From: Chryseobacterium gleum
GTDB taxonomy: Bacteria > Bacteroidota > Bacteroidia > Flavobacteriales > BACL11
DNA: 64,000 nt
Direction: 5' to 3'
Assembly (NCBI GenBank): GCA_945865535.1
Contig: CAMBDW010000006.1
Location: 1-64,000 of the forward strand
Shown here: one piece after another, positions 1 to 6,481 of the stretch
Layout of the letters: each line of letters opens with the position of its first letter
How positions within the stretch are numbered: the first letter of the stretch is position 1
Program-made: the position numbers and the translations under genes
Notes under the pieces: generated by a model
The model's input: only the letters and a program-made list of their open reading frames with translations
Told to the model about the DNA's origin: nothing
Database searches by the model: none

Positions 1-231
1 CCCAGAGAGTAGTAGCTCATCCTTATACTCCAGGAGCTGAGGTCTGGCTATCTCAGAGAGGAGGTAGCTCTTTTTTGTTACCCAGTTAAAGTATTGTTTT
101 AGCGTTCTCCTGTAGAGTAGCTTAGAGCTTAGCTTTACATCCTGAGAGTTTATAAAGCTATCTACTAAATCCTCTATCCTCTGAAAGGTTACTGTAGCTA
201 CATCCTGAGCCTGTTTTACTACTATATCCAT
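1..231 (-). CDS. Tyrosine recombinase/integrase, N-terminal part (runs off the left edge)
   Basis: Reading the minus strand from the ATG at 231 gives 77 open codons up to the window edge. The product starts MDIVVKQAQDVATVTF and continues with FINSQDVKLSSKLLYRRT, LKQYFNWVTKKS and ARPQLLEYKDELLLSG, the pattern of the SAM-like core-binding domain that precedes the catalytic domain in phage/transposon integrases and XerC/D. The catalytic R-H-R-Y part lies outside the window. Base composition (about 41% G+C by hand count) and leucine codons (mainly CTA and CTC, one TTA) differ sharply from the neighbouring TTA-rich genes, which suggests recent acquisition. It lies 40 bp downstream of coxQ on the same strand. 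It could be a XerC/D-like host protein, but the codon use argues for a mobile element. Confidence 0.75.
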   Translation of the reverse strand, partial: MDIVVKQAQDVATVTFQRIEDLVDSFINSQDVKLSSKLLYRRTLKQYFNWVTKKSYLLSEIARPQLLEYKDELLLSG

Positions 232-270
232 ACTTTAGTAATTTACTGTTTACTTTCATAAAAATATAAA

Positions 271-2133: not shown

Positions 2134-3888
2134 TTAATGCTCCTCTTCGCCTTTTTTAAATGGAGTAGTTTGTAGGATAAAATCTTTATCCGCTCCTGGC
2201 TTAGAGTAATCATAAGCCCAGCGCTCTACAACTGGCAATTCCCCTGGCCAATTACCATGTATTCTTTCAATAGGAGTTGTCCACTCTAAAGTATTGGAAT
2301 CCCAAGGATTTTGAGTTGCCTTTGTTCCTTTAAAAATACTGTAGAAGAAATTAAAAAGAAAAATTGTTTGGACTACCGCTCCAGCTAATGCAAAAAAGGT
2401 AATGATACTATTTATATCACTTAATCCGTCAAACATTGGAAATGCACTATTAGTATAATATCTTCTTGGCAATCCAGCTAAACCTAAAAAGTGCATAGGG
2501 AAAAAAACTCCATAAGCACATATAAAAGTCCCCCAAAAATGCAAATATCCTAAATTCTTATTCATCATTCTTCCGTACATTTTAGGGAACCAATGATACA
2601 CCCCAGCAAACATCCCGTATATAGCTGAAAGTCCCATTACAATATGAAAATGTCCAACCACAAAATAAGTATCGTGTACATTTATGTCCAATGCACTATC
2701 TCCAAGAATAAGCCCTGTTAAACCTCCAGTAATAAATGCCGAAACTGTTCCTATAGCAAAAAGCATTGCTGGAGTAAATCGAATATTTGCCCTCCAAAGT
2801 GTAGCTAGCCAATTAAATACCTTAACTGCTGATGGAATTGCAATAAGTAAAGTAGTAAAAGTAAATACTGAGCCTAGAAAAGGATTCATCCCCGTCATAA
2901 ACATATGATGACCCCATACAATAAAGGATAAAAAGGCAATTAATAGAATTGCTCCAACCATAGCTTTATATCCAAAAATTGGTTTCCTTGAATTTACAGC
3001 AATTACTTCAGATACAATCCCTAATGCCGGCAATAAAATAATGTATACCTCTGGATGGCCTAAGAACCAAAATAAGTGTTCAAATAAAATTGGGCTACCT
3101 CCCATATTGTGCAGCATTTCGCCATTAATAATAATATCCGAAAGGTAAAAACTGGTGCCAAAAGATCTGTCAAATATTAATAGTAATCCGCAGGAAAGAA
3201 GTACTGGGAATGAAAGCACTCCTAAAATAGCTGTAACTAAAAGTGCCCAAACAGTTAAAGGTAATCTTTTCATAGACATCCCTTTAGTTCTTAAATTTAA
3301 AACCGTTACGATATAATTTAATCCTCCTAATAAAGATCCCACAACAAAAAGTGTAATACTTACAAGCCATAATGTCATTCCTGTTCCTGACCCAGGAATT
3401 GCTTGAGGCAATGCACTAAGGGGAGGATAAATTGTCCATCCACCAGAGGCAGGCCCGCCCTGAACATATATAGATGAAATTAAAACTATGGTTGCTACAA
3501 AAAAGAACCAATAGGATAACATATTTAAAAATCCTGAAGCCATATCTCTAGCTCCAATCTGAAGCGGAATTAAGAAATTGGCAAAAGTTCCTGAAAGCCC
3601 TGCAGTTAAAACCCAAAAAACTAAAATTGTTCCGTGCATAGTAACTAGTGCCAAATACTTGTCTGGGTTTAAAGCCCCAGCTTCATTTATCCAGCTACCT
3701 GGAAGAAGATTATACAAAATAGAGCTTTCTCCAGGATTTGCAAGTTGGACTCTAAATATTGCAGACATAAGCATTCCAACAACTGCCATAAACATTCCTG
3801 TGATTAAGAATTGTTTTGCAATCATTTTATGATCCTGACAAAAAATGTACTTTGTTATAAATGTTTCTTTATGATGATGATCTGACAT
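2134..3888 (-). CDS. coxA: Cytochrome c oxidase subunit I (A1-type)
   Basis: Catalytic subunit of the aa3-type oxidase: it reduces oxygen at the heme a3-CuB centre and pumps protons. 584 residues, about twelve membrane helices. Visible hallmarks are GHPEVY near residue 278 (CuB His, the D-channel Glu and the cross-linked Tyr, which mark an A1-type enzyme), HHMFMTG with two further CuB histidines, the K-channel Lys in IPSAVKVFNW, and the heme ligands in HDTYFVVGHFHIVMG near residue 400. The N-terminus MSDHHHKETF is His-rich. It follows coxB by 4 bp and is followed directly by coxP. No cyoE lies between them. Confidence 0.97.
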   Translation of the reverse strand: MSDHHHKETFITKYIFCQDHKMIAKQFLITGMFMAVVGMLMSAIFRVQLANPGESSILYNLLPGSWINEAGALNPDKYLALVTMHGTILVFWVLTAGLSGTFANFLIPLQIGARDMASGFLNMLSYWFFFVATIVLISSIYVQGGPASGGWTIYPPLSALPQAIPGSGTGMTLWLVSITLFVVGSLLGGLNYIVTVLNLRTKGMSMKRLPLTVWALLVTAILGVLSFPVLLSCGLLLIFDRSFGTSFYLSDIIINGEMLHNMGGSPILFEHLFWFLGHPEVYIILLPALGIVSEVIAVNSRKPIFGYKAMVGAILLIAFLSFIVWGHHMFMTGMNPFLGSVFTFTTLLIAIPSAVKVFNWLATLWRANIRFTPAMLFAIGTVSAFITGGLTGLILGDSALDINVHDTYFVVGHFHIVMGLSAIYGMFAGVYHWFPKMYGRMMNKNLGYLHFWGTFICAYGVFFPMHFLGLAGLPRRYYTNSAFPMFDGLSDINSIITFFALAGAVVQTIFLFNFFYSIFKGTKATQNPWDSNTLEWTTPIERIHGNWPGELPVVERWAYDYSKPGADKDFILQTTPFKKGEEEH

Positions 3889-3892
3889 CTTA

Positions 3893-4870
3893 TTATTTTT
3901 GGGTTAATAATTTTTCCGATAAGATTTCCTGAGAAGCCACCCAAGCGTCATATTCTTTTTGGGTCTCCACAATAAAACTCATTTGCATATTATAATGTGC
4001 AGCACCACAAATTTTATTACACAATAAAATATATTCAAAATCTTTACCTTCCTGCTCTTTCATTTCAGCAGTTGTTTGAGTAGGAGTAAAGGCAAATTGT
4101 GTCGAAAGACCTGGAACGCAATTCATCTGTACTCTAAAATGTGGTAAAAATGCCGAATGAATCACATCTTGAGATCTGAATTTTAATAATACAGGTTTAT
4201 TTACTACCAAATGCACCTCTCTAACTAATTTATCGTCTATGGCATTTACATCATTCATATTAACCCCTAGGGCATTCTTTCCATTTACTAATGTATAATT
4301 AGCTTTGCCTAATTTATTATCTTCCCCTGAAAGTCTAGCTGTCCACTTAAATTGTTCGGCATAAACCTCTATAACTTTAGCTGTTGAAATATCTGGATTC
4401 ATTGATCTATCCCAAGTTCTTAATCCATACACAATTAAGGCTGTAAGTATAATCGTAGGAACAACTGTCCAAACAACCTCTAATTTATTGTTATGAGCAA
4501 AGAAATAAGCTGTGTTTTTTTGATTTCCTCTATACTTGTAAGCAAAGAAAAAAAGTAGAGGAATTAGCAGAAAAAATGCAATTAAAATTAACCCCATAGA
4601 AACTTGCATTAAAGAATCTATTTCCGCTCCGTGAACAGAGCTTGCTGGGGGCAATAAAAAATGATCCCACGCCACCATTTGCCAAATAACAAATAATATA
4701 AAAGCCCCTCCTACAACTAATGATAAAACTCCTTGGGTTTTATTATCACTATCTGTTACTTTATTAACATCCTGATTTTTAATCTCAGATAGTAACTCAC
4801 CTACTCTTGTAAACTGAACTAAAGTGACAATTACCAGAAATATAACTAGCGCAATTAATATATATATCAT
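3893..4870 (-). CDS. coxB: Cytochrome c oxidase subunit II
   Basis: Subunit II takes electrons from cytochrome c at the CuA centre on the outer face of the inner membrane. The CuA ligands are visible in CNKICGAAHYNM (C-x3-C-x3-H-x2-M) near the C-terminus. No CxxCH heme motif is present, so there is no fused cytochrome c. There are about four hydrophobic segments, two more than the usual pair. I choose the ATG at 4870 (MIYILIALVIFLV, 325 residues). The frame extends to a TTG at 4912, but a -7 promoter element at 4891-4898 lies inside that extension. First gene of the oxidase operon. Confidence 0.93.
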   Translation of the reverse strand: MIYILIALVIFLVIVTLVQFTRVGELLSEIKNQDVNKVTDSDNKTQGVLSLVVGGAFILFVIWQMVAWDHFLLPPASSVHGAEIDSLMQVSMGLILIAFFLLIPLLFFFAYKYRGNQKNTAYFFAHNNKLEVVWTVVPTIILTALIVYGLRTWDRSMNPDISTAKVIEVYAEQFKWTARLSGEDNKLGKANYTLVNGKNALGVNMNDVNAIDDKLVREVHLVVNKPVLLKFRSQDVIHSAFLPHFRVQMNCVPGLSTQFAFTPTQTTAEMKEQEGKDFEYILLCNKICGAAHYNMQMSFIVETQKEYDAWVASQEILSEKLLTQK

Positions 4871-4890
4871 TTTGTAAAATTTTTCGGCTG

Positions 4891-4898
4891 CAAAAATA
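4891..4898 (-). promoter_or_regulatory. -7 promoter element of the cox operon
   Basis: TATTTTTG on the minus strand matches the Bacteroidota sigma-A -7 element TAnnTTTG and ends 20 bp before the coxB ATG at 4870. No clear -33 TTG stands at 19-21 bp. Confidence 0.5.
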
Positions 4899-5001
4899 GA
4901 AAATCCAAGCAATGGAAACTATCAATTCTATCATAATTTTGCGCAGAAGTTATATTTATAATCATTCTATATTATAAGTAATGAAAATTACTTGAAAAAC
5001 T

Positions 5002-5436
5002 CTAATTATCCTCACAATTCCATTCAGCAAAAGAAGTAGCAGTTTCTGAAATTACTACTTTATACAGTTCAATCCCCTCTGGTAATTTACTTTTAATTTT
5101 TAAAGCAAAATCCATAACTAAATTTTCAGAAGTTGGTTGGTAAGGCAAAAAAAACACTTTTTCAAATGCTGAAAAATCAATTTCAGCATGAGGAGAATTT
5201 GCATTTAAAACTAATGAATGATCGTATTTATCAATTATATCGGGCTTTACAATACTCTTTAAAACATCAAAATCCATTACCATGCCATCCTTTTTATGGG
5301 CTTTTTCCTGCCTTACTTTTGCTCTTATGGTTACCCATAATTTATAGGAATGACCATGGATATTTTTACAAAGCCCATCATAGCCATGAAGGGCATGGGC
5401 CATTTCAAATTTGAATTCTTTAGTGATTCTAATCAT
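5002..5436 (-). CDS. queD: 6-carboxytetrahydropterin synthase (QueD/PTPS family)
   Basis: Converts 7,8-dihydroneopterin triphosphate to 6-carboxy-tetrahydropterin in the queuosine precursor pathway; cytoplasmic, Zn-dependent. In the 144 residues the zinc histidines are visible as H14 (EMAHAL) and H27/H29 (IHGHSY), the catalytic Cys as C23 (GLCKNIHGH), the Asp-His pair in DKYDHSLVLN and the C-terminal Glu in SETATS. The Cys spacing favours QueD over eukaryotic-type pyruvoyl-tetrahydropterin synthase. The start overlaps the end of trhO by 8 bp, so the two tRNA-modification genes are translationally coupled. Confidence 0.9.
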   Translation of the reverse strand: MIRITKEFKFEMAHALHGYDGLCKNIHGHSYKLWVTIRAKVRQEKAHKKDGMVMDFDVLKSIVKPDIIDKYDHSLVLNANSPHAEIDFSAFEKVFFLPYQPTSENLVMDFALKIKSKLPEGIELYKVVISETATSFAEWNCEDN

Positions 5437-6481
5437 TGTTTTTTAGATTTAGGTTAACTCTTTTATGACTGTAATACATCTTCTTTTTGCCAGATCCTTT
5501 TCTTATGTCTTTTTGCTGCTCAGTAGGTAAATTGCTAATTTCTATACATTCAATGGAACAACAGTTTTTATATTTAGTCTGACATTTTTCGCATTGCAAA
5601 AATAACAAATTACAGTTTACATTTTTACAATTTACATGTGTGTCAAATGGAGATCCACATTGATGACAGTTACTAATTACATCTTCAGAAATACGCTCTC
5701 CCCTCCTTTCATCAAAAACAAAATTCTTTCCAATATAATTGTTAGATAAACTATCATCTTGCTTTAGCTGTCTTGCATAATCTATTATCCCTCCATGCAA
5801 CTGACTCACATCTTGAAACCCATAATGTTTTAAATATGCAGAAGTCTTTTCACACCTAATTCCTCCGGTGCAATACAAGAGAATTGGCTCTTTCTCTTTT
5901 CCTTTTAGCATGTCTTTTACAGCCGGCAGCTCTTCTTTAAACGTTTCAACATCAGGGCAAATTGCCCATTTAAATTTTCCTATTTCACTTTCATAATGAT
6001 TGCGCATATCAACCACTATTGCTCCATTATCCATGGCTTTGTTCCACTGCCTTGCTGTCAAATGCTTGCCAACATTAGTTACATCATACTCATCAATTTT
6101 AAGTCCATCTGATACTATTTGCTTGCGAACTTTTATTGTTAACTTAAAAAACGAATCTCCCCTATCTTCCACGGCAATTTTAAAAGCCATGTTTAGAAAA
6201 TATTTATTTGCATGTACATTAGTTTGGAAAGCTAGAAAATTATTTTCTGGGACGCTTAATTGTGCATTAATACCTTCATGGGCTAAATAAATTCTGCCCA
6301 AAACACCTAATTCAAGCCAATCTGCATAAAGCTCATCTCTTAATTTATTCGGATTTTCAAGTATTACATAGCGGTAAAAAGAAATTGTTTTTCTTTTAAA
6401 ATCTTCTTGCTTGAGTAATTGCATTCCTTGTTGCTTACTCAATTTGTTAAACATTCCTTTTTTGCCTGTATTTGGATCCAT
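5429..6481 (-). CDS. trhO: tRNA uridine(34) hydroxylase, rhodanese-type (TrhO/YceA)
   Basis: Oxygen-dependent hydroxylase that makes 5-hydroxyuridine at position 34 of tRNAs. 350 residues: an N-terminal ferredoxin-like domain (HEGINAQLSV near residue 65), a rhodanese domain with the catalytic Cys in LLYCTGGIRCEK (about residues 200-212) and a C-terminal cysteine-rich segment (CHQCGSPFDTHVNC and following) that probably binds zinc. ATG at 6481, preceded by a -7 element at 6505-6512. First gene of a two-gene operon with queD, which acts in a related wobble-base pathway. Confidence 0.92.
   Translation of the reverse strand: MDPNTGKKGMFNKLSKQQGMQLLKQEDFKRKTISFYRYVILENPNKLRDELYADWLELGVLGRIYLAHEGINAQLSVPENNFLAFQTNVHANKYFLNMAFKIAVEDRGDSFFKLTIKVRKQIVSDGLKIDEYDVTNVGKHLTARQWNKAMDNGAIVVDMRNHYESEIGKFKWAICPDVETFKEELPAVKDMLKGKEKEPILLYCTGGIRCEKTSAYLKHYGFQDVSQLHGGIIDYARQLKQDDSLSNNYIGKNFVFDERRGERISEDVISNCHQCGSPFDTHVNCKNVNCNLLFLQCEKCQTKYKNCCSIECIEISNLPTEQQKDIRKGSGKKKMYYSHKRVNLNLKNND

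Follow-up and report, generated by a model that had tools for sequence, protein, structure and literature searches.

The window analyzed here, 64,000 nucleotides in length (G000:C6:1-64000), probably opens with the left edge of a plasmid-type mobile element that has inserted between the cytochrome c oxidase gene cox4 and SCO1, the element being represented by bases 1-254. The fragment is foreign to its host and akin to genes of small plasmids, it ends at a sharp boundary, and the continuity of cox4 and SCO1 is broken in this genome. The remainder of the plasmid would continue leftward, and integration was probably carried out by the element's own recombinase.

Base 1 of the window is the first base of a 107-kb contig (C6) in a draft, apparently metagenome-derived genome of 1.51 Mb in 30 contigs. 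On the minus strand, an open frame runs from base 231 to base 1 (77 codons without a stop) and continues past the contig start. The G+C content of these 231 bases is 41.1%, against a mean of 32.9% for the 64-kb window, and only 1.0% of the 231-base windows within the 64 kb reach that value. The 12 leucine codons of the fragment comprise five CTC, five CTA, one TTA and one CTG; the four cox genes use 88 TTA and no CTC. The original prediction had placed a piece of a foreign tyrosine recombinase on the minus strand of the first 231 bases, with a G+C content of about 41% and leucines dominated by CTA and CTC (10 of 12 by our count), unlike its neighbors. All of this agrees with the open frame, with its similarity to a complete recombinase described below, and with a codon use and G+C content that set it apart from the host cox genes.

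Compared on its own with Pfam, PHROG, NCBIfam and PDB, the fragment gave no significant match, the nearest relevant one being an XerD-type NCBIfam model (E = 0.08). Despite this absent domain match, its similarity marks it as an unmistakable recombinase N-terminus, because its 77 residues align throughout, at 91% identity, with a complete protein of 313 amino acids encoded on the contig L005 (94% DNA identity, L005:518-748), which matches Phage_integrase (5e-27) and Phage_int_SAM_1 (2e-4, residues 36-98, just under the curated cut-off). The fragment is the counterpart of residues 1-77 of this protein and, judged by the alignment, takes in the N-terminal arm together with roughly two thirds of the SAM-like core-binding domain. 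The catalytic R-H-R-Y residues are seen in the aligned complete relatives, L005 included; in the window's gene, the contig stops before that region. Among solved structures, XerD is the best relative of the L005 protein, and the L005 gene has a G+C content of 41% and a leucine codon use similar to that of the fragment. Further relatives, from Tenacibaculum and elsewhere, are 58-64% identical to the fragment (58-61% for the Tenacibaculum contigs).

L005 is a 6.2-kb contig at 2.4x coverage from another metagenome, filed under a Planctomycetales bin, where it was probably misbinned. Behind its recombinase gene follow genes for a protein of 165 residues without a known family, a primase-helicase of the DnaG-DnaB type (807 residues), ParA and small DNA-binding proteins. 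At the start of this contig, upstream of the recombinase (L005:1-130), a 22-base unit, ATTTGTCGAGATATTAGTAGCT, occurs five times in tandem; the repeats are iteron-like and perhaps belong to a plasmid origin. The pair of recombinase and primase-helicase recurs on Tenacibaculum contigs and on other metagenome contigs, and it occurs with ParA on a circular Tenacibaculum finnmarkense plasmid of 22,587 bases and on a Flavobacterium plasmid of 19,861 bases, a complete circle. A contig filed as Patescibacteria (L010, JAGPKW010000005.1) also carries the pair; its 17,935 bases look like a circle of 8,846 bases read twice (2 x 8,846 + 243), and it is probably a complete small plasmid of this family. More distant relatives of the recombinase were found on small plasmids of Staphylococcus, Lactobacillus and Streptococcus, and none in phages and viral contigs.

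The closest relatives of the fragment are thus the genes of L005-L011 and those on complete circular plasmids. Since these relatives lie on plasmids next to a primase-helicase and none was found in phages or viral contigs, we assign bases 1-231 (minus strand) by homology to the 5′ part of a plasmid-type XerD-like recombinase gene, cut by the contig end, rather than to a phage integrase. The mobile-element integrase that had been proposed therefore stands as a foreign tyrosine recombinase, but its relatives are plasmid-borne, beside a DnaG-DnaB fusion and often ParA, and are not integrases of phages or genomic islands. A sample of 396 genomes of the order, searched at the strict threshold of E ≤ 1e-60, yielded no copy of the recombinase, a negative of limited weight.

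Some of the Tenacibaculum copies lack the usual neighbors. In T. finnmarkense TNO006 (L008), a second, truncated recombinase start of 66 codons (3656-3856) lies about 1 kb from the full gene (4729-5670), and the AGTAAACAG motif stands upstream of both copies; a ParA frame lies downstream and the primase-helicase is missing. Two large T. finnmarkense replicons of 154 and 131 kb (L069, CP116296.1, and L070, CP116298.1) likewise encode the recombinase and lack the primase-helicase; genes for toxin-antitoxin systems and type VI secretion lie close to it, and these replicons are possibly sites of fused or decayed plasmid copies.

The junction between the foreign and host sequences could be placed precisely. 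Aligned from the start codon, identity to L005 is 94% within the gene and 96% over the 23 preceding bases (22 of 23), then falls to 28%, the level of chance. The maximum-likelihood change point lies at 254/255, within about 2 bases, 23 nucleotides upstream of the recombinase ATG. It falls inside the interval 231-270 in which the boundary of the element had been predicted. The leader of the recombinase gene (232-254, minus strand) is thus element sequence, and it contains AGTAAACAGTAAATTA at 254-239, so that the junction reads ATGAA|AGTAAACAGTAAATTA on the minus strand. Beyond it lie, on the same strand, cox4 (271-594; cytochrome c oxidase subunit IV, COX4_pro; PF03626, 53 bits), which is the intact host gene closest to the junction, and the gene for subunit III of the host cox operon (611-1510; PF00510).

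The edge of the homology falls on the AGTAAACAGTAAAT motif. The junction holds the sole exact copy of the AGTAAACAGTAAATTA motif in the genome, and similar motifs flank the recombinase promoter on the related plasmids, in inverted orientation. By our reading, the L005 promoter is of the Bacteroidota type (TTG-N18-TATCTTTG), with a -7 box kept in Tenacibaculum and L011. On the plasmids, this promoter sits just upstream of the junction point; here it is absent, and the tail of cox4 stands in its place. The motif also precedes the gene for the small DNA-binding protein behind ParA on the plasmids. For this reason, AGTAAACAGTAAAT was not accepted as a proven att core, and, from its placement, the boundary motif may serve as a repressor operator, as a recombination site, or in both roles.

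We then compared the locus with that of related genomes. Wherever the flank could be read, in 29 of 29 relatives, SCO1 comes after cox4, mostly within a few tens of bases, and the flank read beyond SCO1 holds a small conserved gene and, in many of them, CyoE. This recombinase gene does not stand on the 3′ side of cox4 in any of these 29. The foreign fragment thus stands where the relatives have the cox assembly genes (SCO1, CyoE, CtaA), as predicted, its gene is not shared by the relatives, and a sharp boundary between foreign and host sequence here is matched by an uninterrupted locus there. The one genome of the same genus that was compared (G001) yielded neither cox4 nor SCO1.

In the genome under study, SCO1, the small gene, CyoE and CtaA open another contig (C2) behind 483 bases, and these 483 bases were not found at the cox4-SCO1 position in any relative. 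The cox locus of this genome is therefore broken up, each side of the gap ending in foreign or unplaced DNA. The ATGAA beside the junction (255-259, minus strand) coincides in position with the beginning of SCO1 in relatives such as L027, and the first few codons seem to be missing from the SCO1 gene of C2, which probably puts the break in the SCO1 start. Its spacing from the cox4 stop, compared with that of the SCO1 start in L027 and L030, makes ATGAA a probable remnant of the original SCO1 start codon.

The head of C2 (C2:1-483, L050) could possibly be the other edge of the element. Its G+C content of 28% is host-like, and no match to the plasmids was found. A search of the first 6,000 bases of C2 for the boundary motif, with up to two mismatches, returned no copy, although the att core may be a different sequence, and the other edge of the element may fall outside C2. 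This head contains a MORN-repeat-like tail, a kinase-like start of 30 residues (MITLEGYKIIKKIGSGGMGDVYLGD) and a membrane-protein-like frame of 73 residues, whose stop overlaps the SCO1 start (TGATG). A search of 296 genomes of the order gave the 73-residue frame a single weak relative, and the frame belongs to no Pfam family.

Several observations favor the insertion of a plasmid-type element: the change point falls on a motif that recurs at the recombinase promoters of the family; relatives of the recombinase lie on complete circular plasmids; cox4-SCO1 is intact in all 29 related genomes; the codon use and G+C content of the fragment match those of L005; and neither a second copy of the fragment nor a primase-helicase of the module is present in the bin. 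Against it, only 254 bases of the element are seen, in assembled sequence and not in reads, which makes a rare chimera at the contig end possible. In addition, the second edge is not recognized, because the head of C2 has host-like G+C, no match to the plasmids and no motif; and no attB/attP pair can be read, the motif possibly being a repressor operator.

If the insertion is real, the element would carry the XerD-like recombinase of the small primase-helicase/ParA plasmid kind. Its entry into the start of SCO1 would have been by recombination at a point that separates the recombinase promoter from the coding region, either on AGTAAACAGTAAAT or next to it. The inserted recombinase gene would thereby lose its own promoter and end up at the tail of the cox operon, pointing the same way as the cox genes; it would be read, if at all, from that operon. 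SCO1 would be split off behind the element and would need another promoter. The exchange site, the length of the element, its second edge and the effect on expression are what we infer rather than observe.

The most serious alternative, though we judge it unlikely, is an assembly chimera, in which the assembler fused plasmid reads of another community member to a chromosomal contig end, and the gap between cox4 and SCO1 is an unrelated contig break. Such an artifact would fit a foreign piece at the extreme end of a contig in a draft, apparently metagenome-derived genome, its composition unlike that of the host, a closest relative on a 2.4x-coverage contig filed under an unrelated phylum, and the absence of the remaining module from the bin, where searches by recombinase, primase-helicase, boundary motif and contig ends found nothing of the rest of the element. 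To evaluate the assembly, both ends of all 30 contigs were read for shared overlaps. In six pairs of contig ends the shared stretch is exactly 149 bases long, so this is the overlap length of the assembler, and the 254 foreign bases were accordingly rejected as a de Bruijn k-1 overlap. A mere contact at a repeat would give about 149 bases, where the start of C6 carries 254 foreign bases without a partner in the bin; the foreign stretch being longer than the overlap, the junction lies on its own path in the graph. This makes a graph-overlap artifact less likely and favors a real junction without proving it. Moreover, no long word was found in common between the host side and L005 that could seed a false join, the boundary falls on a recurrent plasmid motif beside the recombinase promoter, and a cox4-SCO1 break with unmatched sequence on its other side would require a second coincidence.

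Less probable still is a degraded relic, an old and inactive insertion reduced to the 5′ part of the recombinase and some scrambled DNA between cox4 and SCO1. The truncated recombinase start in T. finnmarkense L008, with no primase-helicase behind it, shows similar decay, and the gene scraps at the head of C2 (the MORN-like tail and the short kinase-like start) would suit such a history. However, the open frame is kept, the DNA is 94% identical to an intact gene, and its G+C content has not drifted toward that of the host, which points to a recent arrival. An ordinary XerC/XerD-like gene of the host, conserved and of host composition, is very improbable even with XerD as the best solved relative of the complete homologue, as synteny and composition contradict it: codon use is foreign, the family is plasmid-borne, and the host carries three complete tyrosine recombinases on other parts of its genome.

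Returning to the inserted plasmid, a further-reaching proposal can be put forward only tentatively, and in its entirety it is doubtful. The element may be an integrative plasmid with its recombination site between the recombinase promoter and coding region and with the SCO1 start as attachment site. Integration would then sever the recombinase from its promoter, place it under the cox operon, cut the copper-insertion gene SCO1 from that operon, and tie excision to the expression of respiratory genes. If the insertion is real, a type of small primase-helicase/ParA plasmid that usually forms free circles has entered a chromosome, with the conserved respiratory operon of a reduced-genome flavobacterium as its target. 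This would suggest that a plasmid recombinase, first expected to resolve multimers, could also integrate plasmids. The exact junction given here is at present one edge of one element.

Among known systems, the closest are the Tenacibaculum and Flavobacterium plasmids with a DnaG-DnaB fusion and ParA (NZ_CP116302.1 and NZ_CP110004.1), which carry the same recombinase family and share with L005 the gene order of recombinase, primase-helicase, ParA and small DNA-binding protein. Unlike theirs, the window's gene abuts a host cox operon, lacks the plasmid promoter region and is assembled over its first 77 codons only. XerD (PDB 1a0p) has in common with the complete homologue the fold family and the R-H-R-Y catalytic layout, whereas the window's recombinase is plasmid-type and foreign to its host. 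Small circular plasmids of Gram-positive bacteria (Streptococcus thermophilus pSMQ-316 and Staphylococcus epidermidis pHD26-2_2) encode recombinases about 40% identical to the L005 protein, and pSMQ-316 also has a DnaB-like helicase; these plasmids differ in being distant, in having other replication proteins and in that no chromosomal insertion was seen. Chlamydial plasmids, which encode the helicase Pgp1, the ParA protein Pgp5 and the integrase Pgp7/8, are built around a comparable core of genes, and these genes are described as frequently integrated into chromosomes (PMC7846284). The likeness is one of analogy and not of membership, as the description places Pgp7/8 in an integrase clade of its own, restricted to chlamydiae and viral in origin (PMC7846284).
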